From Sphingomonadales bacterium (GTDB taxonomy: Bacteria > Pseudomonadota > Alphaproteobacteria > Sphingomonadales > Sphingomonadaceae): a stretch of DNA of 30,013 bases. The stretch covers positions 1 through 30,013 of the forward strand of contig JAGWVC010000045.1 of assembly GCA_018971065.1 (NCBI GenBank), in the 5' to 3' direction. The notes below the pieces were generated by a model, which was given only the letters and a program-made list of their open reading frames with translations, was not told the DNA's origin and ran no database searches. A program made the translations under genes and the position numbers. Positions 19 through 14,050 of this stretch are shown here, piece by piece (the stretch's first letter is position 1; every line of letters begins with the position of its first letter).

Positions 19-474
19 GTGAGTATGACGGGCACGATCCTGGTCCTGAACGGACCGAACCTGAACCTGCTTGGCGAGCGTGAGCCGCACATCTACGGCC
101 ACGAAACGCTGGCCGACGTCGAGGCGCTGTGCCGTGCGGAGGCTGAACCGGCGGGCTATGCCATCGACTTTCGCCAGACCAATGCCGAGCATGAGATGGT
201 CGACTGGATACAGGCCGGGCGCAAGGGGCTGGCCGGCATCGTCATCAACCCGGCGGCGTTCACCTATGCGGCCTATCCGGTGCTGGACGCGATCAAACTG
301 TGCGATTGCCCGGTGATGGAAGTGCATATCTCCAATATCCACCGTCGTGAGGCGGAGTGGCGGTCGCACTCGATCATGACGCAGGTGTGTACCGGCATCG
401 TCTCGGGGTTGGGCATCCACGGTTATCCGCTGGCGGTGCGCCACGTGATCTGGCTGCGGAGCCGGGGCGCATGA
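19..474 (+). CDS. aroQ: Type II 3-dehydroquinate dehydratase (divergent, probably catabolic)
   Basis: This enzyme dehydrates 3-dehydroquinate to 3-dehydroshikimate in the cytoplasm. The 151-residue length and the N-terminal signature LNGPNLNLLGEREPHIYG fit the type II family, with Tyr26 as the expected catalytic tyrosine, Asn77, and His103 in EVHISNIH with Arg115 after it. Some normally conserved positions differ: the usual SNHEG reads TNAEH (residues 54-58), and the usual TH after the INPxA motif is Thr82-Tyr83. The start is GTG at 19, with ATG at 25 as an alternative; a GAGGGAG-like ribosome site lies just upstream. The stop overlaps the next start as ATGA (471-474), so the transporter is probably translationally coupled. 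The nearby quinate/shikimate dehydrogenase suggests a quinate-degrading role, but a biosynthetic role is not excluded. Confidence 0.88.
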   Translation: MSMTGTILVLNGPNLNLLGEREPHIYGHETLADVEALCRAEAEPAGYAIDFRQTNAEHEMVDWIQAGRKGLAGIVINPAAFTYAAYPVLDAIKLCDCPVMEVHISNIHRREAEWRSHSIMTQVCTGIVSGLGIHGYPLAVRHVIWLRSRGA

Positions 475-1736
475 AGCCGACCAAAGCCCGCCTCGGCATC
501 CTCGTGCTGATCAGCCTGGCCACGCTGATCAACTACCTCGATCGCTCGGTCATGGGCGTTGCCAAGCCCGAACTGGTCAGGGAACTGCACATCACCCCGC
601 AGGTGATGGGGCTGATCTTCTCGGCGTTTTCGTGGACTTATGCGCTGGCGCAACTGCCCGGTGGCTATGTGATCGACCGGCTGGGCACGCGGCTGACGTA
701 CGCGCTGTCGCTGGGCCTGTGGTCGGCGGCAACGGCATTGCACGGCTTCATGACCAGCGTGGCCGGGCTGGTCTCGGCGCGGCTGGCGCTGGGCGTGGCC
801 GAGGCGCCGTGCTTTCCCGCCAACAGCCGGGTGCTGTCCACCTGGTTCCCCCAGCAGGAGCGGGCGAAGGCCACCGGGGTCTACACCGTGGGCGAATATG
901 TCGGGCTGGGGATGCTGCTCCCGGTGCTGGGCTGGATGCTCGGCCACTACGGCTGGCGCTCGCTGTTCTGGGCGGTGGGCGTGCTGGGCATCGTGTTCGC
1001 GGGCCTGTTCTTCGCGTTCTATCGCGAACCGCATGAAAGCACCCGCGCCAACGCTGCCGAACGCGCGCTGATCGCGGCGGGCGGCGGGTTTTCCAACGCC
1101 ACGCCCAGCCTGCCGTTCACCTGGGACCGGGTGCGGCGGCTGGTGACGACGCGGCAGATTGCCGGTGCGTCGATCGGGCAGTTCTGCAGCAATTCGACAC
1201 TGGTGTTCTTCCTGACCTGGTTTCCCAGCTATCTGGCCGAGGAAAGGGGGATGACCTTCATCAAGGCCGGGTTCATGGTCTCGCTGCCGTATCTTGGCGC
1301 ATCGCTGGGGGTGCTGCTGGGCGGGGTGTTCTCGGACTGGCTGATCCGCCGCACCGGTTCGCCCACGATCGGCCGCAAGGTGCCGATCATCGCCGGGCTG
1401 CTGCTGTGCGCCTCGATGATCTCGGCCAACTTCCTCACCAGCAACGAGGCGGTGATCGCGGTGATGAGCGTGGCGTTCTTCGGGCAGGGCCTGGCGGGCC
1501 TGGGCTGGACCCTGCTCGCCGATGTCGCGCCCCGGGAAATGATGGGGCTGACCGGCGGGTTGTTCAATTTCTTCACCAACCTGGCCGGCATCGTCACCCC
1601 GCTGGTGGTCGGCTTCGTCGTCGGCGCCACCGGCAGTTTCTATGGCGCACTGGCCTATATCGGCGCGCTGGGGGTGGTGGGAGCGCTGGCCTACCTGCTG
1701 CTGCTGGGGCCAGTGGAGCGCGTCCACATCGACTGA
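471..1736 (+). CDS. MFS transporter, ACS (anion:cation symporter)-like, candidate quinate/shikimate permease
   Basis: A 421-residue major facilitator protein with about twelve hydrophobic segments. The N-terminal LINYLDRSVMGVA and the loop sequence DRLGTRLTYA resemble the anion:cation symporter family that carries hexuronates, glucarate and other organic acids across the inner membrane. I chose ATG 471 because it overlaps the aroQ stop as ATGA; the open frame runs back to 357, but that extension lies inside aroQ and has no membrane-protein character. Coupling to a dehydroquinate dehydratase and closeness to a quinate/shikimate dehydrogenase suggest import of quinate, shikimate or a related hydroxy acid. 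The substrate is inferred from context only. Confidence 0.85.
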   Translation: MKPTKARLGILVLISLATLINYLDRSVMGVAKPELVRELHITPQVMGLIFSAFSWTYALAQLPGGYVIDRLGTRLTYALSLGLWSAATALHGFMTSVAGLVSARLALGVAEAPCFPANSRVLSTWFPQQERAKATGVYTVGEYVGLGMLLPVLGWMLGHYGWRSLFWAVGVLGIVFAGLFFAFYREPHESTRANAAERALIAAGGGFSNATPSLPFTWDRVRRLVTTRQIAGASIGQFCSNSTLVFFLTWFPSYLAEERGMTFIKAGFMVSLPYLGASLGVLLGGVFSDWLIRRTGSPTIGRKVPIIAGLLLCASMISANFLTSNEAVIAVMSVAFFGQGLAGLGWTLLADVAPREMMGLTGGLFNFFTNLAGIVTPLVVGFVVGATGSFYGALAYIGALGVVGALAYLLLLGPVERVHID

Positions 1737-1771
1737 TTCGCGCTGAGCCGGCTGTCGATTGTGACGGCCGC

Positions 1772-1811
1772 TTGACATGTACCAGTTAGTTCATGTACCG
1801 ATTCGTACATG
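1772..1811 (+). promoter_or_regulatory. Putative promoter/operator with three CATGTAC half-sites upstream of the TonB receptor
   Basis: A TTGACA hexamer (1772-1777) suits a -35 element, although no good -10 is visible 17 bases on. CATGTAC occurs at 1776-1782 and 1792-1798 in the same orientation, and its reverse complement GTACATG at 1805-1811. The last two form an inverted repeat with 7-base arms and a 6-base spacer. The half-sites overlap and follow the presumed -35, as expected for repressor binding. The regulator is not identifiable in the window. Confidence 0.5.
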
Positions 1812-1860
1812 AGGAGTGGGGTCCGCGCGGCGGACTCACGTTTTTCCGGGAGGGGTTACC

Positions 1861-4695
1861 ATGAACAAGTTCCGCTTTGCGGCCTGTGCGTCGCTGTTTG
1901 CCATTTCGTTGGGCTGTGCGGTTCCCGCGCTGGCGCAGAAGGCCCCGGCCAAGGCCGACGATGCCGATCAGGGCGCCGAAATCATCGTCACCGGTTCCAG
2001 CATCAAGGGCGTCGCCCCGGTCGGCTCGAACCTGACCACGGTGGGCCGCGCCGATCTGGAAAATTCCGGCGCGCAGACCGTCCAGCAGGTGCTGAAGTCG
2101 GTTCCGGCGGTGGTGGGCCTGCAATCGCCGGGTCAGGGCGCCTATGGCTCGGCCGACGGTTCGGGCACCAACGCGCCCACCATCCACGGCCTCGGCGCGT
2201 CGGCCTCGAACTCGACGCTGATCCTGATGAACGGGCACCGTATTCCCACCAGCGGCCTCAATCACGTGCTGGCCGATCCGAACATCATCGCGCCGATCGC
2301 GCTGGAGCGCGTCGAGGTCCTGGCCGACGGCGCCTCGTCGGTCTATGGTTCGGACGCGGTCGCCGGCGTCATCAACTTCATCACCCGCAAGAAGTTCGAC
2401 GGCCTCGAGGTCGATGCCCAGAAGGGCTTCGGCAAGGACTACAGCACGTTCAGCGCCGGGCTGCTGGCGGGCAAGACCTGGGATACCGGCTCGGTCCTGC
2501 TGGCCTACAACTACTCGAACCGCTCGAGCCTGGCCGCCGCCAACCGCGCCTTCGTTCACGCCGACCTGCGCGCGCAGGGCGGCACCAACTTCACGCCGAC
2601 GCGCTGCGTGGTGCCCACCATCGGCGGCAGCTTCAATCCCTACCTCACCTACACCCCGTCGGGCTGCGATCCGACCGGCACCTGGGACCTGCTGCCTTCG
2701 GAAAAGCGCCATAACGTCTATGCCGAGATCACCCAGGACGTGGGCGACAAGCTGCACCTGAGCGCGGACTTCATCTATTCGCACCGCAAGGACGTCCAGA
2801 ACGTCACCCGCGGCAACGCCTCGGCCGCGATCTACAACTCGGCCACCGGCATCGCCGCCGGGCGCTCGGTCAACCCGTTCGCCCCCGCCGGCCTCGCCAA
2901 TGGCGCCACCGTCGGTTGGGATGCCGACCAGATGTTCGGACCCGGCGCCACCATCACCGGCAAGGCCGAGGATTTCTACGCGCACCTCGACGCGGTCTAT
3001 GACCTGTCGCAGAAGTGGTCGGTCAACGTCGGCGGCGTGCTGGGCCGCGACACCTCCGAACAGATCAACGACGGCCAACTCAACGCTTCGGCGTTCAACC
3101 TGGCGGTCAACGGCTTCACCTCGGCGGCGATCAACGGCGTCACCCAGTCGGTCAGCCAGGCACTGACCACCGCCAACGCGGTCGATCTGTGGGGCACCGG
3201 CACGTCGGCCGCCACCAAGGCCGCGCTGATCGACAACCACCAGTACGCCGCTTCGAAGCATACGCTGCGCAATGCCTACCTGAAGCTGAGCGGCGACCTG
3301 TTCGACCTGCCCGGCGGCGCGGTCAAGCTGGCAGTGGGTGGCGAACTGCTGGGTTATTCGCTGCATCAGGACATCGTCCGCCCCAACAACCTCGGCGTCG
3401 CCAGCCAGAATTCGCAGTTCCTGGCGATCGACTATCACCGCAACGTCCAGTCGGCCTATGCCGAACTTTACGTGCCGCTGGTGAAGGACGGCTTCGTCCG
3501 CTCGCTCGACCTGAACCTGTCGGGCCGCTACGATCACTATTCGGCGATCGGCAGCACCACCAACCCGAAGATCGCGATGAACTTCGAGCCGGTGCAGGGC
3601 ATCAAGTTCCGCGCCAACTGGGCCAAGTCGTTCGTGGCCCCGGCGCTGACCTCGATCGGTTCGAACGCGGCCGGCCTGACCGGTGAATCGAGCTTCTCGG
3701 GCGGCCTTGCCAGCGCGCTGCCGGGCGGTGCGCCCACGCTCAGCCTGGCCAGCTTCCCGACGGCGGCCAGCGTTCCGGGGGCTAGCTGCACCGCCACGGC
3801 CTGCACCATTCCCAACGTGTTCGGCGTCACCATTGCCGGTGGCAACGGCAACCTGAAGCCGCAGAAGGGCACCGCGTGGAGCCTGGGCGTGGACCTGACG
3901 CCCGTGCAGGTGCCCGGCCTGCGCCTGTCGGTTACCTACTGGAAGAACATGCTGCGCGGCGGCATCACCGCGCCGCAGCCGGCGCTGGCGGTGGGTGCGG
4001 CCGATCTTCAGCCGCTGCTGCAGCTCTATCCGGCGGGCGCCACCCCGGCGCAGATCGCGGCGCTGACCACCGGCCTGCCGCAGACCAGCGCGATCACCAG
4101 CCCGGTCTACTTCATCTACAACTTCCAGCAGAACAACGTGCTGAACCTCAACGTCGCCGGCATCGACGTCGCGGCCAGCTATCGCCTGAACACCGACGTG
4201 GGCAACTTCACCTTCAACGGGTCATTCACCCGCAAGCTGAAGTTCGACCAGTTCTTCGGCAGCAACGGCACCGTGTTCAGCGTGCTGGGCACCACCGGCT
4301 TCAACACGACCTTCCCGTCGCTGAAGTTCGAGGGCCGCTTCAACCTCGGTTACGAGAACAACGGCTTCAGCGCCGATGTCTGGTACAACTATCTGGGCGG
4401 CTACACGTTCTGGGGCAGCTCGCCGGTCAACCCGGTGGTGCGCACCAATGGCGTGCCCACCAGCGGCGGCGATGCGGTAGGCTCGTTCGGCACCATCGAC
4501 CTGCACGTGGCCTACCACTTCAAGCAGCTCGGCGCGGTGAAGGACGCGACCGTCTATGCCGACGTCACCAACATCGGCAACAAGGCGCCGCCGTTCCTGA
4601 ACAGCTACACCACCAACGGCGCGGTCGGTTATGACAGCCTGAACGCCAACCCGATCGGGCGCGTCGTCAGCATCGGCTTGCGCACGAAGTTCTGA
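1861..4695 (+). CDS. TonB-dependent outer-membrane receptor
   Basis: A 944-residue receptor for energised uptake through the outer membrane. It starts with a signal peptide (about residues 1-25, cleavage after VPALA). A segment containing EIIVTGSS, typical of sphingomonad receptors at the edge of the plug domain, follows at about residues 43-52. The plug (GSDAVAGVINFITRK at about 160-180) and a long beta-barrel rich in alternating aromatic residues come next, and the protein ends in Thr-Lys-Phe. ATG 1861 follows a strong GGGAGGGG ribosome site; the longer frame from 1816 would bury the signal peptide. It sits between the dehydroquinate dehydratase/MFS pair and a quinate/shikimate dehydrogenase, so a plant-derived ester or hydroxy acid is a plausible ligand. 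The sequence does not reveal the ligand itself. Confidence 0.93.
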   Translation: MNKFRFAACASLFAISLGCAVPALAQKAPAKADDADQGAEIIVTGSSIKGVAPVGSNLTTVGRADLENSGAQTVQQVLKSVPAVVGLQSPGQGAYGSADGSGTNAPTIHGLGASASNSTLILMNGHRIPTSGLNHVLADPNIIAPIALERVEVLADGASSVYGSDAVAGVINFITRKKFDGLEVDAQKGFGKDYSTFSAGLLAGKTWDTGSVLLAYNYSNRSSLAAANRAFVHADLRAQGGTNFTPTRCVVPTIGGSFNPYLTYTPSGCDPTGTWDLLPSEKRHNVYAEITQDVGDKLHLSADFIYSHRKDVQNVTRGNASAAIYNSATGIAAGRSVNPFAPAGLANGATVGWDADQMFGPGATITGKAEDFYAHLDAVYDLSQKWSVNVGGVLGRDTSEQINDGQLNASAFNLAVNGFTSAAINGVTQSVSQALTTANAVDLWGTGTSAATKAALIDNHQYAASKHTLRNAYLKLSGDLFDLPGGAVKLAVGGELLGYSLHQDIVRPNNLGVASQNSQFLAIDYHRNVQSAYAELYVPLVKDGFVRSLDLNLSGRYDHYSAIGSTTNPKIAMNFEPVQGIKFRANWAKSFVAPALTSIGSNAAGLTGESSFSGGLASALPGGAPTLSLASFPTAASVPGASCTATACTIPNVFGVTIAGGNGNLKPQKGTAWSLGVDLTPVQVPGLRLSVTYWKNMLRGGITAPQPALAVGAADLQPLLQLYPAGATPAQIAALTTGLPQTSAITSPVYFIYNFQQNNVLNLNVAGIDVAASYRLNTDVGNFTFNGSFTRKLKFDQFFGSNGTVFSVLGTTGFNTTFPSLKFEGRFNLGYENNGFSADVWYNYLGGYTFWGSSPVNPVVRTNGVPTSGGDAVGSFGTIDLHVAYHFKQLGAVKDATVYADVTNIGNKAPPFLNSYTTNGAVGYDSLNANPIGRVVSIGLRTKF

Positions 4696-4707
4696 GCCTC
4701 CACCCTG

Positions 4708-4735
4708 CCCGCTCCGGGTTCGCGCCCGGGGCGGG
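4708..4735 (+). terminator. Hairpin after the TonB receptor gene
   Basis: CCCGCTCCGGG (4708-4718) pairs with CCCGGGGCGGG (4725-4735), all Watson-Crick except one G-U pair, around a 6-base loop, 12 bases after the receptor stop. Only ACTTT follows, so the U-tract is weak. It may attenuate rather than fully stop transcription into the downstream dehydrogenase gene. Confidence 0.55.
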
Positions 4736-4768
4736 ACTTTCCCCGTATTCTACAATGACAGGACCGCC

Positions 4769-5671
4769 GTGACCCTGAATTCCCGCATCACCGGTATTGG
4801 AACCGATCGGGTTCTGGCCGGGCTGGTCGGGCGCGGCATCCTCGAATCGCGCACGCCCTGGATGCATGAGCGCGAGGGCGATGCGCAGGGTTTGCGGCTG
4901 CTTTACGCGCTGTTCGATTTCACCGATCGCGGCTGGGCCGACAGCGAACTGGAAACCCTGCTGGCGGCCACGCAGCGGGTCGGGTTCGTCGGCCTGAACG
5001 TCACCTTTCCGTTCAAACAGGCGGTCATCCCGCTGCTGGACGAACTTTCCGATGGCGCGGCGGCGGTGGGGGCGGTGAATACCGTGGCGTTCCGCGACGG
5101 TAAGCGCATCGGTTTCAACACCGACGTCACCGGCTTCGCAGCCGGGTTCCGTCATGGCCTGCCAGGATTGTCGCCCGGCCGGGTGCTGCAGCTTGGCTGC
5201 GGCGGTGCGGGATCGGCCACCGCCCACGCCCTGCTGGGCGCGCTGGGGGCAGAGCAGGTGCTGCTGTGCGATACCGACGCCGCCCGGGTGGAAGCCCTGC
5301 GTGCCGATCTTGCCGGTCGATACGGTGCGGCACGCGTCGGCGTGGCGGTCGATGCGGCGGCGGCGGCGGTCGAGGCGGATGGCATCCTCAACGCCACGCC
5401 GATGGGCATGGCCAAGTTCCCCGGGATGCCGATTGCCGCCGCTGCCATCCAGCGGCACCATTGGGTTGCCGATATCGTTTATTTCCCGCTGGAGACGGCG
5501 CTGCTGGCCGAAGCGCGCGCGCGCGGGTGCCGCACGCTGGATGGCGGCGGCATGGCCGTGCATCAGGCGGTGGACGCGTTCGGCATCTTCACCGGGCTGA
5601 CGGCCGATCACACCCGCGTGCGGGCCAGTTTTGCGGCGTTTTCCGATGAGCAAGGGCGCAGCGCCACCTGA
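4769..5671 (+). CDS. qsuD: Quinate/shikimate dehydrogenase, NAD-dependent QsuD type
   Basis: A 300-residue shikimate-dehydrogenase-fold protein. The substrate motif is SRTPWMHEREG (Ser27, Thr29) rather than the SxSPxxHN of biosynthetic AroE. By memory it closely resembles Corynebacterium glutamicum QsuD, where the Thr is linked to accepting quinate. Other expected residues are present: Lys83 in NVTFPFK, Asn104 in GAVNT, Asp119 in FNTD, Gln266 in HQAVDAF, and the dinucleotide loop GCGGAG (143-148). The second Rossmann strand ends in Asp168 (CDTD) instead of the NR(T/S) of NADP enzymes, which favours NAD. GTG 4769 follows AGGA with 6-base spacing. It likely oxidises quinate to 3-dehydroquinate and shikimate to 3-dehydroshikimate, feeding the aroQ product pool. 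Confidence 0.88.
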   Translation: MTLNSRITGIGTDRVLAGLVGRGILESRTPWMHEREGDAQGLRLLYALFDFTDRGWADSELETLLAATQRVGFVGLNVTFPFKQAVIPLLDELSDGAAAVGAVNTVAFRDGKRIGFNTDVTGFAAGFRHGLPGLSPGRVLQLGCGGAGSATAHALLGALGAEQVLLCDTDAARVEALRADLAGRYGAARVGVAVDAAAAAVEADGILNATPMGMAKFPGMPIAAAAIQRHHWVADIVYFPLETALLAEARARGCRTLDGGGMAVHQAVDAFGIFTGLTADHTRVRASFAAFSDEQGRSAT

Positions 5672-5727
5672 GGCGCTTGTGGAACACGGTACGCCAGCGT
5701 GAACGACAACGGTTGAGGAGCGCAGGT

Positions 5728-6696
5728 ATGCGGAACGTGTTGATGGGTCTGGCGCTGGTGGCAATGCCGGCGATGGCGCAGCCGACCGGTGAGGAAACCC
5801 CGCCGGCCGACATCGCCGCGAAGGTGGCCGAGGCCACGGCGGACGCCGATGCCGGTGGTGCCGGGCCGTTCAAGGCGGAAATGACCGCCGAAGCTTCGCT
5901 GCCCACGCACACCATCTATCGCCCGCGCAACCTGGCCGCCGCCGCGCGGGCGGGCAAGCTGCCGATCGTGGCCTGGGGCAATGGCGCCTGCGCCAACCTG
6001 GGCAACCGCTTCCGCTACTTCCTGACCGAGGTGGCCAGCCACGGCTACCTGGTAGTGGCCGTTGGGCCGCAAGGGCCGCACACCGTCGAGTGGAAGGTGG
6101 ACATCGCCCCGCCCGGCGCGGCGCCGAACCCGGCCGACCGGCCGCCCAATTCCTATGCCGCGCAACTGGGCGACGCGATCGACTGGGCGGTGGCAGAGAA
6201 TGCGCGCAAGGGCAGTCGCTATTTCGGCAAGCTGGACACTGGCGCCATCGCGGTGATGGGGCAATCCTGCGGCGGGCTTCAGGCGATTGCGGCGGCGGCG
6301 GACCATCGCGTGAAAACGCTGGTCGTGCTGAACAGCGGCACCTTCCCCGAGGGCACCAAACCGCTGGCCGGCACCGGCGACGCGACCAAGGCCAGCTTGA
6401 AGCGCATTCAAGTGCCCACCGCTTGGATCAGCGGCGACGACAGCGATGTGGCGCACAAGAATGCCGATGCCGACTATGCCGCGTTCACCGACGCGCCGGC
6501 GCTGCGGGTCTGGCACAAGGGTACCGGGCACAGCGCGCACTGGCGCGATCCGCGCGGCGGCCTGTTCACGCCGCTGGTGGTCGACTGGCTCGACTTCTGG
6601 CTGAAGCACCGCCGCGCTGCGGCGGCCAGCTTTGCCGGCAAGGACTGCACGCTGTGCAAGGCCGACGGCTGGTACGTGGACCGGAAGCGGTTCTAA
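5728..6696 (+). CDS. Exported alpha/beta hydrolase, candidate hydroxycinnamate ester hydrolase
   Basis: A 322-residue protein with a cleavable signal peptide (about 1-17, ending PAMA), so it probably acts in the periplasm. An alpha/beta-hydrolase core follows: nucleophile Ser180 in GQSCGG, acid candidates Asp237/Asp238 in SGDDSD, and His268 in GTGHSAHW. An Asn-Gly oxyanion-type segment lies near residue 85. The C-terminus carries a Cys308-x-x-Cys311 pair, possibly a disulfide. ATG 5728 follows GAGGAG with 7-base spacing. It lies between the quinate/shikimate dehydrogenase and ferulate genes, which suggests cleavage of chlorogenate- or feruloylquinate-type esters, comparable in role to Acinetobacter HcaG. 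That role is inferred from position. It ends tail-to-tail with ferC with a 4-base overlap. Confidence 0.78.
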   Translation: MRNVLMGLALVAMPAMAQPTGEETPPADIAAKVAEATADADAGGAGPFKAEMTAEASLPTHTIYRPRNLAAAARAGKLPIVAWGNGACANLGNRFRYFLTEVASHGYLVVAVGPQGPHTVEWKVDIAPPGAAPNPADRPPNSYAAQLGDAIDWAVAENARKGSRYFGKLDTGAIAVMGQSCGGLQAIAAAADHRVKTLVVLNSGTFPEGTKPLAGTGDATKASLKRIQVPTAWISGDDSDVAHKNADADYAAFTDAPALRVWHKGTGHSAHWRDPRGGLFTPLVVDWLDFWLKHRRAAAASFAGKDCTLCKADGWYVDRKRF

Positions 6697-7136
6697 CCCA
6701 CCAGCGCCTGCAGCGCGGGGACGAAGTGCGGGCGATGCTCGGACGGAATTCGCGCCATCAGGTCACTCTCGAAATCGTCGGTGATCCGGCGAACCTGCGC
6801 CAGCCGCGCTTCGCCCGCGTCGGTCAGGACAATCGCCTGTGACTTGCGGTCCAGCGGCACGCGGTGGATCAGCCCGGCGGTTTCCAGCCGGCCCAGCAGC
6901 GGCACCATGTTGGCGCGCTGGATATCCAGCACCTTGCCGATTTCGGATGACGTCATGTCGTCGCGCCCGGCGATCAGCAGCAGCACCGACGCGTCGGAAA
7001 TGCGCAGTTCGGCAGCGCCAAGGCGGGTGGCCAACTCGGCCATCATCGCATTGGCGGCGCGCCGCAAGGCATAGCCGGGCAGGTTGGACAGGGGATCGAC
7101 GTCAGGCAAGGCAATCTCCAAAACGCTATTGACCAT
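6693..7136 (-). CDS. ferC: MarR-family regulator, FerC-like repressor of the hydroxycinnamate operon
   Basis: A 147-residue MarR protein with a winged helix-turn-helix: helices around MTSSEIGKVLDIQRANM, then LLGRLETAGLIHR, and a wing with DRKSQAIVLTDAG. It is divergent from a ferB-ferA pair, the arrangement of Sphingobium SYK-6, where FerC represses ferBA and CoA thioesters of hydroxycinnamates relieve it. ATG 7136 is the start that leaves a normal MarR N-terminus; the open frame continues upstream across ferB but is clearly a shadow. The start codon lies inside an inverted repeat (7134-7154), so it may repress itself. The symbol is assigned by context and family. Confidence 0.8.
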   Translation of the reverse strand: MVNSVLEIALPDVDPLSNLPGYALRRAANAMMAELATRLGAAELRISDASVLLLIAGRDDMTSSEIGKVLDIQRANMVPLLGRLETAGLIHRVPLDRKSQAIVLTDAGEARLAQVRRITDDFESDLMARIPSEHRPHFVPALQALVG

Positions 7137-7154
7137 AGCAATAACTTGGCTATG
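7134..7154. promoter_or_regulatory. Inverted-repeat operator candidate in the ferC-ferB intergenic region
   Basis: CATAGC (7134-7139) and GCTATG (7149-7154) form a perfect inverted repeat separated by 9 bases. The left arm includes the ferC start codon. A TTGGCT hexamer at 7146-7151 overlaps the right arm and could be the ferB -35. Bound MarR protein here would cover both divergent starts. The surrounding 7130-7180 stretch is AT-rich for this genome, as expected of a promoter region. Confidence 0.55.
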
Positions 7155-7248
7155 CTGAATATCAATTACACACGTTTCCTGATTTCCGCATCGCGAAAAG
7201 CCGAAACCGGCTCCCACCTTCGGCGCGATGCTCAATGCGAGGATTGTC

Positions 7249-8088
7249 ATGTCTGATCGTGCCGAGGAAGATACCGTTGCCGTCCGTGTCGAGGACGGGA
7301 TTGCCTGGGTTTCGTACAACCGCCCCGAAAAGCGCAACTGCATGAGCCCGAAGCTCAACAGGCAGATGGGCCGCGTGCTCGAGGAACTCGAATTCCGCGA
7401 CGACGTGCGCGTGCTGGTGCTGACCGGTGAGGGCGACGCGTTCTCGGCCGGCATGGATTTGAAGGAATACTTCCGTGAGAACGAGGCGCTGGGGATCGGC
7501 GCCATCCGCAAGAGCCAGCGCGAGGCTTATGGCTGGTGGGACCGGCTGCGCTGGTACGAAAAACCCACGATCGGCATGGTCAATGGCTGGGCGTTCGGCG
7601 GCGCCTATGGGCCGCTGCACGCGCTCGACATCGTCGTCGCCGCCGATGATGCCACGTTCGGCCTGTCGGAAATCAACTGGGGCATCCTGCCCGGCGGCGG
7701 CGCCAGCAAGGTGGCGCAGGAACTGATGCCGTTCCGCAAGGCGATCTATCACGCGATGATGGGCGAGAACCTGACCGGCAAGCAGGCCGCCGAGCAGGGC
7801 CTCGTCACCGAAAGCGTCCCCGCCGACCAGCTCAGGGCGCGGGTTGTCGAGATTGCCGAGGTGCTGAAGAAGAAGGACGCCAACGCGCTGCGTTCCACCA
7901 AGTGGGCAATGCGCCGGATGGCCGAGATGACCTTCGACAACGCGATGGACTACCTGATCCGCGCGCAGGAAGCGCTGAACGGCATGGGCGGCCTCGAAGC
8001 GCGCAAGGAAGCGACCAGGCAGTTCCTCGACGACAAGACCTTCAAGCCGGGCCTGGGCGCGTTCGACGCCACGAAGGTGGCGAAGTAA
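7249..8088 (+). CDS. ferB: Hydroxycinnamoyl-CoA hydratase-lyase (feruloyl-CoA hydratase/lyase)
   Basis: A 279-residue crotonase-fold enzyme that hydrates and cleaves feruloyl-, caffeoyl- or p-coumaroyl-CoA to the benzaldehyde plus acetyl-CoA. Family signatures include NRPEKRNCMSP, SAGMDLKEYF, PTIGMVNGWAFGG and ATFGLSEINWGILPGG, with Glu141 matching the catalytic Glu143 of the Pseudomonas fluorescens enzyme. The position of Ser123 in that enzyme is Gly121 here. The C-terminal FLDDKTFKPGLGAF is also typical. ATG 7249 has GAGGA 7 bases upstream and fits better than ATG 7228. It is separated from ferA by a single base, so the two form an operon. Vanillin and related aldehydes would be the products. 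Confidence 0.92.
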   Translation: MSDRAEEDTVAVRVEDGIAWVSYNRPEKRNCMSPKLNRQMGRVLEELEFRDDVRVLVLTGEGDAFSAGMDLKEYFRENEALGIGAIRKSQREAYGWWDRLRWYEKPTIGMVNGWAFGGAYGPLHALDIVVAADDATFGLSEINWGILPGGGASKVAQELMPFRKAIYHAMMGENLTGKQAAEQGLVTESVPADQLRARVVEIAEVLKKKDANALRSTKWAMRRMAEMTFDNAMDYLIRAQEALNGMGGLEARKEATRQFLDDKTFKPGLGAFDATKVAK

Positions 8089-8089
8089 C

Positions 8090-10204
8090 ATGACGCGACC
8101 GACGTCGGCGATGATCGACCGGTTGCTGCGGCCGAAATCGGTCGCGGTGGTCGGCGCCAGCGACAAACCCGGGGCGCTGGGCGCCTCGGTGCTGGGCAAT
8201 CTCGATCGCAACGGTTTTGCCGGGGCGGTCTATCCGATCAACCCCAACCGTGAGTCGATCGGCGCCCGCCCGTGCCTGCCATCGGTGGATGCCCTGCCCG
8301 AAGGCGTGGACGTGGCGGTGCTGGCGATCCCGCAAGCCGCGGTGCTGGACGCGGTGCGCGGGCTGGCGGCGCGCAAATGCGGCGCGGCGATCGTGTTTGC
8401 CGCCGGATTCGCGGAGGGCGGCCCCGAAGGACTGGCCGCACAGGCCGAGATCGCGCGGATCGCGGCGGAATCGGGCATGGTCGTCGAAGGACCGAACTGC
8501 CTGGGCATGGTCAGCCACGTCGATGGCGTGCCGCTGACCTTCGTCGAAACCGAATGCAGCGCGCCGAACGGTCGCCGCGCCATCGGCGTGGTCTCGCAAA
8601 GCGGGGCGATGGCGGCAGTGCTGTGCACCACGCTGCTGGCGCGCCAGATGGCGGTTTCCTACTCGATCTCGACCGGCAACGAGGCGGCTTCGGGCGTCGA
8701 GGACTATGTCGAATGGCTGGTCGATCAGCCCGACACCCGCGTCATCGCCATGATCGTCGAGCAGTTCCGTCACCCCGCCGCGTTTCTGGCGGCGGCAAGG
8801 CGCGCGCGCGCGGCGGGCAAGACCATCGTGCTGCTGCACCCCGGCAAGTCCAGCGCGGCGCGCGAATCGGCGGCAACCCACACCGGCGCGATGGCCGGCG
8901 ACCACATGCTGATGCGCGCCAAAGTGGAGCGCGCCGGGGTTAATCTGGCCGAGACTCTGGAAGAACTGGGCGACATCGCCGAAATCCTGGTGCGCTGCGC
9001 GCCGATGACCAACCCGGCCCTCGCGGTTCTGGGGGAATCGGGTGCATTCAAGGCCTTGACACTCGATCTTGCCGAGGAACTGGAACTGCCGCTGGCGGAC
9101 CTGCACGACGCCAACGCGCCGGCCCTGCGCGCCGCGCTGCCGCCGTTCGTGCCGGTCAGCAACCCGCTGGACATCACCGCGCAGGGCCTCAGCCAGCCAC
9201 AGATCTACACCCACTGCCTGACCGCGCTGTTCGATGACGATCGCGTCGGCGGCGTGGTCTGCGGCATCATCCAGGGCGATCCGGTGACCAGCGGCATCAA
9301 GGTGCCCGCCATCCTCGCGGCGCTCGACGGGCGCGAACTGACCAAGCCGATGGTGTTCGCCGGGCTGGATGAAGGCGCGGGTATTCCGGCCGACTATATC
9401 GCCCAGTTGCGCACGCGGGATATTCCGTGGTTCCCCTCGACCGAACGCGCGTTTCGCGCGCTGGCGCGGCTGGGGCAGGCGTCGGTGCGCGATCTGGCGG
9501 ACAACGGCCCCGCGCCGGTGCCGCTGGCGGGCCTTGCCGATCAAGCCGGCGTGGTTCCCGAATACCGGGCGAAGGCCCTGCTGGCGCCGCTGGGCGTGCC
9601 GTTCCCGGCGGGAAGGTTTGCCGACAGCGTCGATGCCGCCGTGGCAGCCGCCGCAGCAGTCGGCTATCCCGTTGCCATGAAGGCGCAGGCCGCCGCGTTG
9701 AGCCACAAGAGCGACGCCAGCGGCGTGGCGCTGAACCTGGCCGATGCCGCTGCCGTGCGCGCCGCGTGGCACGCGATGTTCGCCAGCGTTGCCGCCTACG
9801 ATGCCGCGATCCGGCTGGACGGCGTGCTGATCGAGGGCATGGGCAAGCGCGGGTTGGAGATGATCGTCGGCGCCCGGAATGACCCCGAATGGGGGCCGGT
9901 GGTGCTGGCCGGATTCGGCGGGGTGACGGCGGAAATCCTTCAGGACGTGCGCCTGATCACGCCCGACCTGTCCGAAGACGCGATCGTCGCAGAACTGCTG
10001 AAGCTCAAGAGCGCGGCATTATTGCGCGGTTATCGCGGCACGCCGGCGCTGGACGTGCGCGCGCTGGCCCGGCTGATCCGCAGCGTCAGCGCCGCCCTGC
10101 TGGCCGAGCCGGACTTGCGCGAGCTGGACCTGAATCCGGTGATATTGCACCCGGAAGGCGAGGGCGCGGTGGCGCTGGACGCGCTGATGCTGGTATCGGG
10201 TTGA
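8090..10204 (+). CDS. ferA: NDP-forming hydroxycinnamoyl-CoA (feruloyl-CoA) synthetase
   Basis: A 704-residue acyl-CoA synthetase of the nucleoside-diphosphate-forming (acetyl-CoA synthetase ADP-forming) superfamily, not the AMP-forming ANL family. Order: CoA-binding Rossmann domain (about 1-140, VGASDKPGALG and EGPNCLGM), succinyl-CoA ligase-like domains (about 160-450, VSQSGAMA), with His264 in THTGAMAG as the likely phosphohistidine, and a C-terminal ATP-grasp domain (about 485-700, LSHKSDASGV, AGFGGVTAEILQD). SYK-6 FerA belongs to this superfamily and is paired with FerB in the same way. It activates ferulate and related acids with CoA and ATP. ATG 8090 begins two bases after the ferB stop. 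Confidence 0.88.
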   Translation: MTRPTSAMIDRLLRPKSVAVVGASDKPGALGASVLGNLDRNGFAGAVYPINPNRESIGARPCLPSVDALPEGVDVAVLAIPQAAVLDAVRGLAARKCGAAIVFAAGFAEGGPEGLAAQAEIARIAAESGMVVEGPNCLGMVSHVDGVPLTFVETECSAPNGRRAIGVVSQSGAMAAVLCTTLLARQMAVSYSISTGNEAASGVEDYVEWLVDQPDTRVIAMIVEQFRHPAAFLAAARRARAAGKTIVLLHPGKSSAARESAATHTGAMAGDHMLMRAKVERAGVNLAETLEELGDIAEILVRCAPMTNPALAVLGESGAFKALTLDLAEELELPLADLHDANAPALRAALPPFVPVSNPLDITAQGLSQPQIYTHCLTALFDDDRVGGVVCGIIQGDPVTSGIKVPAILAALDGRELTKPMVFAGLDEGAGIPADYIAQLRTRDIPWFPSTERAFRALARLGQASVRDLADNGPAPVPLAGLADQAGVVPEYRAKALLAPLGVPFPAGRFADSVDAAVAAAAAVGYPVAMKAQAAALSHKSDASGVALNLADAAAVRAAWHAMFASVAAYDAAIRLDGVLIEGMGKRGLEMIVGARNDPEWGPVVLAGFGGVTAEILQDVRLITPDLSEDAIVAELLKLKSAALLRGYRGTPALDVRALARLIRSVSAALLAEPDLRELDLNPVILHPEGEGAVALDALMLVSG

Positions 10205-10247
10205 ACGCAAGCCCGACACGGCGACGCCGGCGGGCAGGGGGAGAGGA

Positions 10248-11579
10248 ATGATGGAACCGACATCACAGGCGCTGGATCGCGATCCCCGCAAGTTGCTGGC
10301 GGGAACGCCGATGACGGTCATGCAGATCGTTGCCATCGGCGTCTGCGTCCTGCTGAACGCGCTGGACGGGTTCGACGTGCTGTCGATCAGTTTCGCCTCG
10401 CCCGGCATCGCGAAGGAATGGCACATCGAACGCGGTGCGCTGGGCGTGGTGCTGTCGATGGAACTGTTCGGCATGGCGGCGGGGTCGGTACTGCTGGGCC
10501 AGGTGGCGGATCGCATCGGCCGCAAGGCGACGACGCTGCTGTGCCTGTGCGTGATGGCGCTGGGAATGCTTTCGACCACGCAGGTCGGCAGCATCGGCGC
10601 GCTGGCCGCAACCCGGCTGTTCACCGGCATCGGCATCGGCGGCATGTTGGCCACCACCAACGCGCTGGTGGCCGAATATGCCAACGACAAGTGGCGCGGC
10701 GCGGCGGTGGCGATCATGGCGGCCGGCTATCCGGTGGGCGGCATTGCCGGGGGGGCAATCGCCAGCGGGCTGCTGGCGCACGGCGACTGGCGGCAGGTGT
10801 TCTGGCTGGGCTTCGCGATGACCGCGATCTGCCTGCCGCTGGTGCCGTGGCTGTTGCCAGAGCCGGTGAGCGCGCTGCTTCAGAAACGGCGCGGCGATAC
10901 GCTGGCGCGGGTGAACGCCACGCTGGCGAAGCTGGGCCATGAAGGCGTTAACGGGCTGCCGCCGGTGGAGCCGGGCGCGCGCAAGGCGCATATCGCCGAG
11001 CTGTTCCGGGGCGGCATGGCGCCGGTCACGGTGCTGCTGACCGCCGCCTATTTCCTGCATATCCTGACCTTCTACTTCATCCTGAAATGGACCCCGAAGA
11101 TCGTCGTGGACATGGGCTTCACCCCGTCGGCGGCAGGCGGCGTGCTGGTCTGGGCCAATGTCGGCGGGCTGCTGGGCGGACTGGTGTTCAGCGCGCTATC
11201 GCTGCGGTTCGGGCTGCGCGGACTGCTGGTGGCGTTCATGCTGGCCTCCACCGCGATGGTCACCGCGTTCGGCCAGGGCCATGCCGATCTCCACGCCCTG
11301 TCGATGGCGGCGGCGGCGGGCGGGTTCTGCACCAACGGCGCCGTGGTGGGCATCTATGCGCTGGTGGCGGCCTCGTTCCCCACGGCGATCCGGGGCGGCG
11401 GCACCGGGTTCGTCATCGGCGTGGGCCGGGGCGGGGCGGCGCTCAGCCCGATTGTGGGCGGGGTGCTGTTCCAGGCGGGGCTGGGCCTGAACCGCGTGGC
11501 GATGGTGATGGCGTGCGGGTCACTGGTGGCAGCGGCGGCGCTGCTGGTGCTGCCCCGGCGCGAATCGCAGGGCCATTGA
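10248..11579 (+). CDS. MFS aromatic acid:H+ symporter (AAHS family)
   Basis: A 443-residue twelve-helix permease. The TM1 sequence LLNALDGFDVLSISFASPGI carries the acidic DGFD motif of aromatic acid:proton symporters, and GQVADRIGRKATTL is the loop 2-3 motif. It follows ferA by 43 bases with a strong GGGGGAGAGGA ribosome site. ATG 10251 has better spacing (7 bases from GGGGAG) than ATG 10248, so the product may be one residue shorter. The position suggests inner-membrane import of hydroxycinnamates or their esters, comparable in role to Acinetobacter HcaK. The substrate is not determined by sequence. Confidence 0.88.
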   Translation: MMEPTSQALDRDPRKLLAGTPMTVMQIVAIGVCVLLNALDGFDVLSISFASPGIAKEWHIERGALGVVLSMELFGMAAGSVLLGQVADRIGRKATTLLCLCVMALGMLSTTQVGSIGALAATRLFTGIGIGGMLATTNALVAEYANDKWRGAAVAIMAAGYPVGGIAGGAIASGLLAHGDWRQVFWLGFAMTAICLPLVPWLLPEPVSALLQKRRGDTLARVNATLAKLGHEGVNGLPPVEPGARKAHIAELFRGGMAPVTVLLTAAYFLHILTFYFILKWTPKIVVDMGFTPSAAGGVLVWANVGGLLGGLVFSALSLRFGLRGLLVAFMLASTAMVTAFGQGHADLHALSMAAAAGGFCTNGAVVGIYALVAASFPTAIRGGGTGFVIGVGRGGAALSPIVGGVLFQAGLGLNRVAMVMACGSLVAAAALLVLPRRESQGH

Positions 11580-11675
11580 TGTCCCGATTTTTGACCTGAG
11601 CCCATGATTGCGCTTGCAAGGGCGGCTATGTAAGGCGCGGCCCTGTACAGTGTGGCCGGGCAACGGAACGGGATC

Positions 11676-12968
11676 ATGGCGGACAACAGGGTAATCATTG
11701 CCGGCGGTGGCATCGCCGGGCTTTCGCTGGCGCTGACGCTGCACCAGATCGGCGTGGACGCAGTGGTCTACGAAGGCGTGCGCGAACTGGCGCCGCTGGG
11801 CGTGGGCATCAACCTGCAGCCGAACGCGGTGCGCGAGCTGGAAGACATGGGCATCACCGCCGCCGATCTTGACGCATGCGGCCTGCCCGCGCGCGAATGG
11901 GCGCTGCTGGGGCTGAACGGCAAGGAAATCTACAGCGAACCGCGTGGCAAGCTGGCCGGCTACAAGTGGGACCAGTATGCCGTGCATCGCGGCAAGTTCC
12001 ACCTGCTGCTGGCGCGCAAGGTGGTAGAACGGCTGGGTGCCGATGCGCTGGTGCTGGGCCACAAGGTTACCGGCTATCGCAAGGAAGCCGACGGCGGCGT
12101 CACTGCGCTCGTCACCGCCGAGGACGGCACCACCCGCGAAGCGCGCGGCAGCCTGCTGATCGGCGCCGACGGCATCCATTCCACCGTGCGCGCGCAGATG
12201 CATCCCGGGCAGCCGCCGATCCACTGGGGCGGCACGATCATGTGGCGCGGCACAGCGAAAGGCGTGCCGATCCGCACCGGCTCGTCGTTCATCGGCCTGG
12301 GCACCGACCGGCACCGCGTGGTTCTGTACCCGATCTCGCACCCCGATGCCGACGGCCTGGCCGACATCAACTGGATTGCCGAGCAGACTTTCGACACCGA
12401 CCATGACTGGCAGAAGGCGGGCTGGTTCCGGCCGGTGGCGCTGGACGAGTTCGCGCACGAATTCGCCGGCTTCGTCTATGACTGGCTGGACCTGCCGGCG
12501 CTGCTGGCGAAATCGGACTGTGCCTACGAAAACCCGATGATCGACCGCGAGCCGCTGCCCACCTGGGTGGATGGGCCGGTGGCGCTGATCGGCGATGCCG
12601 CGCACGCGATGTACCCCACCGGATCGAACGGGGCGACCCAGGCGATCATCGACGGGCGCGTGCTGGGCCGGATCATGCTGACCCGGGGAGTAACCCCGGC
12701 GGCGCTGCGCGGCTATGACGACGAACTGTGCGGGCCGGTCGGGCAACTGGCGCTGCGCAATCGCGGCGCCGGGCCGTTCGGCCTGCTGCGCATGGTGGAC
12801 GATCGCTGTGGCGGCGTGTTCGAAAACATCGACGACGTGATCCCGGCAGCGGAACGCTCGGCGTTCATGCTGGCCTACCAGCAGGCGGCCGGGTTCGCGC
12901 GGGACGAATTGAACGCCAAGCCCGGAATCCTGCCCGCCGGCGCACAGGTTGCGCGGGAGCCGGCATGA
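11676..12968 (+). CDS. FAD-dependent aromatic monooxygenase (PhzS-like, group A)
   Basis: A 430-residue flavoprotein hydroxylase of the p-hydroxybenzoate hydroxylase fold. The FAD dinucleotide motif VIIAGGGIAGLSLA is at about residues 5-18, the DG motif GADGIHSTVR near 165, and the GDAAHAMYPTGSNGATQA motif at about 308-325. The C-terminal part, with RCGGVFENIDDVIP, resembles PhzS-type 5-methylphenazine-1-carboxylate monooxygenases and their uncharacterised relatives. It would use NAD(P)H and oxygen to hydroxylate an aromatic acid, possibly with decarboxylation. ATG 11676 follows GGAACGGG; the GTG at 11652 only adds eight non-family residues. The stop overlaps the DUF3237 start as ATGA. No phenazine genes are nearby, so an aromatic-catabolic substrate is more likely, but it is unknown. 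Confidence 0.85.
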   Translation: MADNRVIIAGGGIAGLSLALTLHQIGVDAVVYEGVRELAPLGVGINLQPNAVRELEDMGITAADLDACGLPAREWALLGLNGKEIYSEPRGKLAGYKWDQYAVHRGKFHLLLARKVVERLGADALVLGHKVTGYRKEADGGVTALVTAEDGTTREARGSLLIGADGIHSTVRAQMHPGQPPIHWGGTIMWRGTAKGVPIRTGSSFIGLGTDRHRVVLYPISHPDADGLADINWIAEQTFDTDHDWQKAGWFRPVALDEFAHEFAGFVYDWLDLPALLAKSDCAYENPMIDREPLPTWVDGPVALIGDAAHAMYPTGSNGATQAIIDGRVLGRIMLTRGVTPAALRGYDDELCGPVGQLALRNRGAGPFGLLRMVDDRCGGVFENIDDVIPAAERSAFMLAYQQAAGFARDELNAKPGILPAGAQVAREPA

Positions 12969-13420
12969 CCCCGGCGCTGGAACATGTCTGTGACTTCGTC
13001 GTCGAACTGGCGCGGCCGCATGAACTGGGCGACGGCCCCAACGGCGTGCAGCGGATCATCCCGATCGTGGGCGGCACCGTTTCCGGACCGCTGCTGAACG
13101 GCCGCATCATCGGTGTCGGCGCGGACTGGCAGAGCGTGACCGCCGATGGCCTGGCACGGCTCGATGCCCGCTATGCGCTGGAAACCGACGACGGCGCGGT
13201 GATCGAGATCCTCAGCCAAGGCATTCGCCACGCGTCCGCCGCAGTGGCCGCCCGGATTGCCGGCGGGGAAGCGGTGCCCCCCGGCGAATACTACATGCGC
13301 ACCGCGATCCGGCTGACCACCGGCCATCCCGGGTATGACTGGGTGAACCGCGCGCTGTTCATTGCCGCCGGCGGCAAGGTGGGCGCCACCGTGCACCTTC
13401 AGGTGTTCCGGGTAACCTGA
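12965..13420 (+). CDS. DUF3237 domain protein
   Basis: A 151-residue cytoplasmic protein matching the DUF3237 pattern: an N-terminal HVCDFVVELARPHELG strand, QRIIPIVGGTVSGP and LNGRIIGVGADWQ, DARYALETDDGAVIEI, a YYMRTAIRLTTGHPGYDWVN segment and a short C-terminal strand. The family is predicted to form a small beta-barrel and is often found beside catabolic enzymes; no general activity is established that I can cite. The start overlaps the monooxygenase stop by 4 bases, so the two are almost certainly co-translated. It may process or isomerise the monooxygenase product, which is inference. Confidence 0.85.
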   Translation: MTPALEHVCDFVVELARPHELGDGPNGVQRIIPIVGGTVSGPLLNGRIIGVGADWQSVTADGLARLDARYALETDDGAVIEILSQGIRHASAAVAARIAGGEAVPPGEYYMRTAIRLTTGHPGYDWVNRALFIAAGGKVGATVHLQVFRVT

Positions 13421-13464: not shown

Positions 13465-13866
13465 TTACCCGGCCAGTGGGCCGACCAGCTCGACAATGTG
13501 CCCATCGGGATCGCTGACCAGCCCGGCGCGAACCGCGTGGTCGGGAATATCCTCGCCCTCGCGCACCAGCGTGCCACCATTGGCAACCGCGGCGGCAATC
13601 GTCTCCTCGACATCGCGGACCCGGAACGCCAGCCAGGCCTGACCCGGATAAGTCGCCGCAGCTGGGGTCGGTAGCTGGGTAAAGCGGCTGAGAATCAGGA
13701 TGTGGGCGTTGTTCTCACCGCTGGCCAGCCACACCTGATCCTGTCGCACCTCGCCATCGCCGCCCAGGTTGCGGCTGACTTCGACGAGCCCCAGCGCCGC
13801 GTAGAACCGCACCGACGCGTCGAGGTTGGCGACCACCAGCTTGGTGGCATGAAACTGCTCGATCAT
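13465..13866 (-). CDS. VOC-superfamily (glyoxalase/bleomycin-resistance-like) protein
   Basis: A 133-residue single-chain VOC protein with two beta-alpha-beta-beta-beta modules: KLVVANLDASVRFYAALGLVEVSR at the start, then AWLAFRVRDVEETIAAAVANGG, and the C-terminal signature VSDPDGHIVELVGPL. The Glu in HIVEL and a His near the N-terminus (HATK) are possible metal ligands. The substrate cannot be told from sequence; dioxygenases, isomerases and lactoylglutathione lyases all share this fold. ATG 13866 has AAAGGG upstream; the frame extends to 14001 but without family similarity. It is convergent with the DUF3237 gene and divergent from the GGDEF-EAL gene, so it is probably a single-gene unit. 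Confidence 0.82.
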   Translation of the reverse strand: MIEQFHATKLVVANLDASVRFYAALGLVEVSRNLGGDGEVRQDQVWLASGENNAHILILSRFTQLPTPAAATYPGQAWLAFRVRDVEETIAAAVANGGTLVREGEDIPDHAVRAGLVSDPDGHIVELVGPLAG

Positions 13867-14050
13867 CCCGTTGCCCTTTCGCATCCAGCGCCCGGGCGCA
13901 TCTGAATGGCACGCGGACACCGGTGCAAGCGGAAATTTTGCGGATTTCGACCGGTCGGTGCGGGCGGGAAAGGCGACGAAGCGGTTGCCCGTGTCTGACA
14001 CGCGCCTAGGGATTTACGCGGTGCTAAGCATTGCCGGGTATAGCCTCGGC

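Follow-up and report, generated by a model that had tools for sequence, protein, structure and literature searches.

In Acinetobacter baylyi ADP1, the hca-qui region brings together quinate genes, a hydroxycinnamate coenzyme A (CoA) ligase, a hydratase/lyase, an ester hydrolase and a MarR repressor, and FerA of strain SYK-6 represents the nucleoside-diphosphate (NDP)-forming type of CoA ligase. The DNA analyzed here, a stretch of 30,013 nucleotides from a Sphingomonadales bacterium (contig JAGWVC010000045.1) referred to as the window, harbors a locus composed of two modules: a quinate side with aroQ, an MFS permease, a TonB-dependent receptor, QsuD and an exported hydrolase (HYD), and a hydroxycinnamate side with marR, ferB, ferA and a second MFS permease. 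With a probability of about 0.68, two separately regulated modules make up a supercluster here for the catabolism of hydroxycinnamoyl-quinate (chlorogenate-type) esters. On the best reading the locus would be functionally similar to the Acinetobacter hca-qui region, though built from different parts. Like that region, the window has contiguous quinate and hydroxycinnamate genes, a hydrolase and a MarR gene. Unlike it, the window relies on a TonB receptor, on a hydrolase of the PETase fold, on a dehydrogenase of the QsuD type and on a CoA ligase of the NDP-forming type, and its presumed MarR operators were found only in front of ferB and not in front of the hydrolase unit, the first promoter of which lies outside the window.

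The hydroxycinnamate side resembles ferCBA of SYK-6, where marR is likewise divergent from ferB-ferA and the same enzyme families are found. Unlike in SYK-6, the fer genes of the window have a quinate module and an MFS permease joined to them. The qsu genes of Corynebacterium glutamicum share with the window a QsuD-type quinate/shikimate dehydrogenase; an outer membrane, a TonB receptor or an esterase is not known there. The best solved relatives of the QsuD of the window are 2nlo ('Shikimate dehydrogenase', E 1.6e-72) and 3jyo ('Quinate/shikimate dehydrogenase', E 3.6e-72) in the PDB, both of which come from C. glutamicum. A further parallel is provided by plasmid pLA3 of Novosphingobium pentaromativorans US6-1 and a plasmid of N. 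capsulatum HAMBI_0103, the two examined out of 147 QsuD-matching plasmid records, on which genes for a carboxylesterase, an alpha/beta hydrolase, a QuiC-type enzyme, a TetR regulator, an MFS permease, a TonB receptor and a shikimate dehydrogenase stand in a row. The window shares with them the combination of hydrolase, MFS permease, TonB receptor and shikimate-dehydrogenase-type gene. In contrast to the window, both plasmids carry TetR and QuiC-type genes and no annotated ferBA in this stretch, and their QsuD is only 53–54% identical to that of the window. A sphingomonad quinate-ester locus is not described among the matches listed in the Creative Commons-licensed literature, as far as their titles and abstract openings go, which is weak evidence of absence. 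In the excerpts concerned, 'quinate' occurs only for a plant transgene (PMC10807440), and the transcripts of the wheat rhizosphere include a chlorogenate esterase and 3-dehydroquinate dehydratase, with no sphingomonad quinate-ester locus (PMC6043799). For A. baylyi ADP1, the substrates named in an excerpt include chlorogenate, quinate, shikimate, coumarate and ferulate (PMC2606687).

In the proposed mechanism, the TonB receptor would take the ester across the outer membrane, and HYD, perhaps together with an esterase of the feruloyl-esterase family BD-FAE encoded beyond the window edge, would cleave it in the periplasm. One MFS permease would import quinate and the other the hydroxycinnamate. 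QsuD would convert quinate to 3-dehydroquinate and AroQ would form 3-dehydroshikimate, from which a dehydratase encoded outside the window would generate protocatechuate. FerA would activate the hydroxycinnamate with CoA, and FerB would cleave the product, yielding a benzaldehyde plus acetyl-CoA. Repression of ferBA would fall to the MarR protein, and another regulator, perhaps of the TetR type, would govern the quinate side.

Sequence and domain profile searches recover nine genes in the order aroQ-MFS-TonB receptor-QsuD-HYD-marR-ferB-ferA-MFS within positions 19–11579, all of them in the order and range given by the earlier note (Table 1). Its description of a single nine-gene cluster holds for the gene content and needs amendment. 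First, marR lies on the minus strand, convergent with the HYD gene, with which it overlaps by 4 bp at the 3′ ends, and divergent from ferB, so that the nine genes are not co-directional. Second, the right transcription unit probably runs past 11579 to about 13420, taking in genes for a flavin monooxygenase and a DUF3237 protein; the gap between the MFS gene and the monooxygenase gene is 72–96 bp, depending on the start codon, and the latter overlaps the DUF3237 gene by 4 bp. An overlap of 4 bp also links aroQ to the MFS gene that follows it. Only 18 bases precede aroQ in the window, and the upstream part of the quinate locus, including the aroQ promoter, lies outside.

Both the quinate dehydrogenase and the dehydroquinate dehydratase of the pathway from quinate to protocatechuate are encoded in the window. 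QsuD passes the subfamily model NF009201 and scores 262 against the stricter quinate equivalog NF010631, under the cut-off of 515. The MFS permease of the quinate side is a probable quinate/shikimate importer. On the other side, the features of a ferCBA-type operon are all present: a hydratase/lyase, an adjoining NDP-forming CoA ligase and a divergent MarR gene with operator-like palindromes in between. The best solved relative of FerB is 7xwc ('Feruloyl-CoA hydratase/lyase', PDB, E 5.7e-119).

The nearest relatives found belong to the genus group that contains the genome of Novosphingobium ovatum (G001; G and L numbers are our own handles). The closest of them is G436, with QsuD 85% and FerB 95% identical. 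A QsuD match (E ≤ 1e-60) is present in 57 of 195 genus genomes, the 21 closest being 63–84% identical. In 11 of these 21, aroQ, the same MFS permease, the TonB receptor and QsuD occur together, the aroQ match of G438 being partial; at the remaining loci one of the four genes is missing or replaced, or the contig ends. Since relatives keep the same order of the left module, a chance gene order is implausible. Copies of aroQ (79–90% identical) and of the quinate-side MFS permease (76–91%) are found at most of the closest quinate loci, aroQ not being found at those of G436, G351, G486, G437 and G466, and a TonB receptor of the window type or of a second type adjoins QsuD at most quinate loci. Gene calling in the relatives was heuristic, and some frames are over-long (L001:1388-3853, L165:17230-18333). 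Many relatives carry additional genes upstream, encoding a pyrroloquinoline quinone (PQQ) dehydrogenase, a ThuA protein, a small c-type-cytochrome-like protein and an apparently exported BD-FAE hydrolase. The PQQ dehydrogenase lacks the membrane part and finds its best NCBIfam model in TIGR03074 (glucose/quinate/shikimate family), with 459 bits against a cut-off of 833. On the hydroxycinnamate side, ferA adjoins ferB in G436, G002, G301, G343, G001 and G371, the ferA probe remaining without match beside ferB in G475, G003, G466, G137 and G066, and MarR copies (71–85%) adjoin ferB in G436, G002, G475, G301 and G343. Relatives of the downstream MFS permease, a probable hydroxycinnamate importer, are located near ferBA in G436, G301, G343 and G371. 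The pair of flavin monooxygenase and DUF3237 protein recurs near HYD relatives in G301 (L183) and G426 (L204), with 74–76% and 68% identity. Other DUF3237 genes lie a few kb from ferB in G002, G475, G301, G343, G031, G174 and G207. According to an excerpt from the literature, this domain is carried by PinX, which is related to PhcG and PhcF and, like them, acts as a decarboxylase in a lignan-type pathway (PMC12607616).

The ester reading is supported by exported esterases, which are common at quinate loci, and by HYD relatives beside ferB in two genomes (G066 and G137). For the first point, 41 QsuD loci were evaluated, made up of the window, 22 of the 57 genus genomes, 17 of 18 family genomes and G355, which had been chosen for its HYD relative. 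The 22 comprise the 21 closest genomes and G346, chosen because ferB is near, and include the 18th family genome, G001; the 35 genus genomes with more distant QsuD lie outside this count. Within 12 kb of QsuD, QuiC is present at 27 of these loci, the PQQ enzyme at 14, BD-FAE at 22 and HYD at 6. At 26 of the 41 loci, BD-FAE or HYD is found within this distance, compared with none of eight control ferB loci. The figure is 23 of 33 when only loci are counted that extend 6 kb or more to either side of QsuD, and 24 of 38 when the window, G355 and G346 are left aside. Joined or linked loci (L161, L164, L181, L189, L201, L205, L207, L220) and the short L196 are not part of the control set, and control L192 carries a BD-FAE relative at 34%, under the identity line of 45% that was used.

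HYD displays an apparent signal peptide, as judged by eye, and 1435 homologues at E ≤ 1e-10 among 7995 candidates scored. In an alignment of 30 sequences, S197 within the motif GQSCGG and H285 are invariant, and D254 and D257 are candidates for the acid of the triad. The structure model has a mean pLDDT of 91.2 and its best fold matches are 2fx5, a lipase of Pseudomonas mendocina, and PETases. Against the PETase family PF12740, HYD reaches 21.0 bits, under the Pfam gathering cut-off of 28; PF12740 is assigned in precomputed annotation to most of 120 HYD homologues listed. From fold, motif and neighbourhood, HYD is proposed to be a hydroxycinnamoyl-quinate ester hydrolase. Close orthologues (70–72%) occur in four of the 195 genus genomes, in three of them within 3 kb of QsuD and in the fourth, G460, adjoining QuiC on a short contig. 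More distant relatives are situated 15–19 kb from QsuD in G301, G322, G366, G388 and G434, and HYD relatives flank QsuD in G122 and G355, one of those in G355 lying about 4 kb from ferB. In G066 and G137, PobA and a TonB gene accompany a HYD relative that is located within 1.5 kb of ferB. The distance between HYD and QsuD is 20 kb or less in 8 of the 27 genus genomes that have both, where random placement predicts 0.4; for HYD and FerB, the corresponding values are 3 of 36 genus genomes (0.62 expected) and 3 of 29 family genomes (G066, G137 and G207; about 0.6 expected). These expectations take no account of kinship or contig breaks. HYD relatives thus associate with QsuD and, more weakly, with ferB. 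A HYD tree was not relied on; G001 and G002 are apparently missing from it after duplicate removal. A Steroidobacteraceae metagenome-assembled contig (L006) bears relatives of BD-FAE, MFS, HYD, ThuA, PQQ dehydrogenase, TonB receptor and QsuD with 47–58% identity, a parallel locus outside the Alphaproteobacteria which has no ATGTACN6GTACAT palindrome. In the tree mentioned, the HYD of this gammaproteobacterial locus falls outside the close group of the window, making it a distant parallel at best.

The order around HYD varies between relatives. In G436, a QuiC-type gene between QsuD and the MarR gene occupies the site that HYD takes in the window, and the order in G001 is QsuD-QuiC-HYD. These arrangements would fit an ancestor with the order QsuD-QuiC-HYD, from which the window and G436 each lost a different gene. 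The G436 locus has no aroQ; ahead of the MFS gene it keeps an ATGTAC-type site and what look like roughly the first 14 aroQ bases as in G001 (L161, reverse strand, about 5000–5200 from the reversed start), which suggests a local deletion of aroQ.

Quinate and hydroxycinnamate pathways both end in protocatechuate, and the two modules could be neutral neighbours which adjoin by chance and share only this end product, with HYD serving the quinate side or an unrelated role. FerB (E ≤ 1e-90) is matched in 98 of the 195 genus genomes, and QsuD and FerB lie within 20 kb of each other in three of the 50 genomes that have both (G436, G002 and G346). In a sample of 298 family genomes, QsuD is present in 18; besides G001 there are 17, 15 of which have FerB, with the two genes within 20 kb in G031 (2.9 kb) and G037 (about 15 kb), and about 28 kb apart in G174. 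These five genomes compare with about 0.74 expected (rough Poisson 0.001), which is only a guide, the figure assuming random placement and ignoring contig breaks as well as the kinship of the genomes, which are not independent. The joined loci show at least four layouts: the fer genes follow the quinate unit in the window and G436, stand just ahead of BD-FAE in G002 and G475 (which resembles G002 and is split between contigs), converge as ferBA on aroQ-QsuD-TonB in G031, and are separated from the quinate half by a 6-kb gap in G346. Uncommon as it is, the join recurs and has probably arisen more than once. Nor is the window alone in this arrangement, which G436 shares, the other genomes named here having different layouts. 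Although the usual separation of the modules, the joined G436 locus lacking HYD and a distinct palindrome for each half are all compatible with neutral neighbours, this explanation is considered unlikely, in view of the recurrence of the join in several layouts, its excess over random placement and the association of HYD relatives with both QsuD and ferB.

Separate control of the two halves is suggested by their palindromes, each half carrying its own and neither recurring elsewhere in the window at one mismatch or fewer. The gap between marR and ferB contains two copies of GCTATN5ATAGC (two in the window at ≤1 mismatch, 0.13 expected), and the gap ahead of the TonB gene contains two of ATGTACN6GTACAT (0.03 expected in shuffles). 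The former pair is the presumed MarR operator of the ferB promoter. It is kept in tandem in seven of ten aligned relatives (G436, G002, G475, G301, G343, G371 and G426) and absent from G001, G003 and G346. ATGTACN6GTACAT precedes aroQ and the TonB gene in relatives, and in G001 and G002 also BD-FAE. Counted anywhere within a stretch, it occurs with up to two mismatches in 29 of 43 quinate stretches compared with one of 13 control stretches, and with up to one mismatch in 19 of 43 compared with none of 13. At the wider threshold it is missing from 14 of the 43, pLA3 and L201 among them, and the N. capsulatum stretch has a single match about 6 kb from QsuD, away from the locus. GCTATN5ATAGC, at ≤1 mismatch, is found in 14 of 20 ferB stretches, but also in 6 of 38 quinate stretches without ferB. 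Its weaker matches mean little, because at two mismatches the window holds 12 where 4.5 are expected, ten of them scattered extras including one inside HYD at 6218; relaxing ATGTACN6GTACAT to three mismatches adds one match, at 13420.

In G436, where the quinate promoter is visible, a GCTAT-type site at ≤1 mismatch likewise stands only ahead of ferB. One regulator for both halves was rejected as the simple reading, presumed MarR sites at ≤1 mismatch having been found only ahead of ferB and the other palindrome preceding the TonB gene, and it is unlikely that one MarR protein switches all nine genes. The ester could still induce both halves, each through its own moiety. According to an excerpt, FerC-type regulators respond to hydroxycinnamoyl-CoA, and the repressor HcaR is relieved by CoA esters (PMC10458429). 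Additional exact copies of GCTATN5ATAGC outside the marR-ferB gap were noticed in L204 (near 7240), L189 (near 6624) and L203 (near 16193), one of them directly ahead of an MFS gene in G426; such sites possibly mark further members of a MarR regulon.

Several observations weigh against a supercluster for hydroxycinnamoyl-quinate esters. For 47 of the 50 genus genomes with both, the halves could not be placed within 20 kb of each other, contig breaks hiding some joins as in G475, and being usually apart is what the earlier note had named as refuting its proposal. G436 has the join, and neither HYD nor BD-FAE was found in the 20 kb covered there. At 15 of the 41 quinate loci neither esterase lies within 12 kb, five of these having less than 6 kb on one side, and the control ferB set excludes L202, L203, L204 and L221, which had been chosen because HYD is near. 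In the window, a QuiC-type probe for the 3-dehydroshikimate dehydratase (best model NF042435, 654 bits, below the cut-off of 1200) gave no match at E ≤ 1e-6, the upstream DNA lying outside. The fold relatives of HYD are cutinases and PETases, and its activity on quinate esters is putative. Finally, many HYD homologues adjoin TonB genes 26–36% like that of the window, with no quinate gene found there, and the wider family is for this reason not quinate-specific. That HYD and the TonB receptor act instead on another quinate/shikimate conjugate (e.g. galloyl- or acetyl-quinate) or on a cutin/suberin polyester with bound hydroxycinnamates, ferBA handling the released acids, is improbable: the cutinase/PETase fold, the ferulate carried by plant polyesters and the two genomes in which a HYD relative keeps company with ferB, PobA and a TonB gene (G066 and G137, no QsuD in the 20 kb covered) speak for it, but in the genus the close HYD orthologue was found only at quinate loci (4 of 4), a pattern not easily reconciled with a polyester enzyme. 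Use of chlorogenate-type esters, as proposed by the earlier note, accordingly stands as the best reading, given the esterases at quinate loci, the HYD relatives near ferB and the Novosphingobium plasmids, whereas the two halves are usually apart and one MarR switch is unlikely.

Table 1. Coordinates of genes and sequence elements at the quinate–hydroxycinnamate locus (positions in the window).
Feature	Position	Strand	Basis and remarks
aroQ, type II 3-dehydroquinate dehydratase	19..474	+	likely start ATG at 25; PF01220 174 bits; NF003806 above cut-off
MFS permease, D-galactonate/ACS-like	471..1736	+	PF07690; best model TIGR00893 371 bits, below cut-off 395
Two overlapping ATGTACN6GTACAT palindromes	1777..1810		1777-1794 one mismatch; 1793-1810 exact
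TonB-dependent outer-membrane receptor	1861..4695	+	PF00593, PF07715
G+C-rich hairpin, then short T run, 3′ of TonB gene	4696..4745	+	by eye, unscored
QsuD-like quinate/shikimate dehydrogenase	4769..5671	+	NF009201 382 bits, cut-off 235
HYD, exported serine hydrolase, cutinase/PETase fold	5728..6696	+	homologues, motif, structure model
MarR regulator, ferC-like	6693..7136	-	PF12802, PF01047; start uncertain, first putative operator overlaps ATG used
Tandem GCTATN5ATAGC palindromes	7125..7163		7125-7139 exact; 7149-7163 one mismatch; 24 bp apart
ferB, hydroxycinnamoyl-CoA hydratase/lyase	7228..8088	+	likely start 7249; NF006588 418 bits, cut-off 276
ferA-type NDP-forming hydroxycinnamate-CoA ligase	8090..10204	+	PF13549, PF13607, PF13380
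MFS permease, aromatic acid/H+ symport type	10248..11579	+	TIGR00895 298 bits, below cut-off 419
Flavin monooxygenase, PRK07538 type	11652..12968	+	likely start ATG 11676; NF005720 556 bits, cut-off 400
DUF3237 protein	12965..13420	+	PF11578 154 bits

The hairpin behind the TonB gene is a possible attenuator. Directly after the catabolic genes, a small glyoxalase-family gene on the minus strand and a gene for a PAS-GGDEF-EAL protein are located at 13465-16399. Further downstream, an RND efflux permease (20917-24096, minus strand) and, in a frame on the same strand that overlaps it (19541-22183), an outer-membrane efflux protein domain bear no relation to the catabolic cluster.

Each half of the locus is already known as such, and the joined arrangement is uncommon. 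A broader and more tentative proposal, to which we give somewhat less than even odds, is that sphingomonad quinate loci represent a widespread, undescribed system leading hydroxycinnamoyl-quinate esters from the outer membrane to protocatechuate. Such a system would have a TonB receptor of its own and one or two esterases that are exported (BD-FAE and a new family of chlorogenate esterases with the PETase fold). It would further include a PQQ quinate dehydrogenase, soluble and periplasmic, together with a c-type cytochrome, as well as a regulon marked by ATGTACN6GTACAT, and would have been fused repeatedly to hydroxycinnamate operons. Chlorogenic acids are common soluble plant phenolics, and, if this is true, a group of plant- and soil-associated bacteria would own a dedicated system for their uptake and hydrolysis. 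It would become possible to predict what one class of TonB receptors takes up, a PETase-fold enzyme family would gain a natural substrate, and the two modules would exemplify gene clusters that join repeatedly around one substrate.

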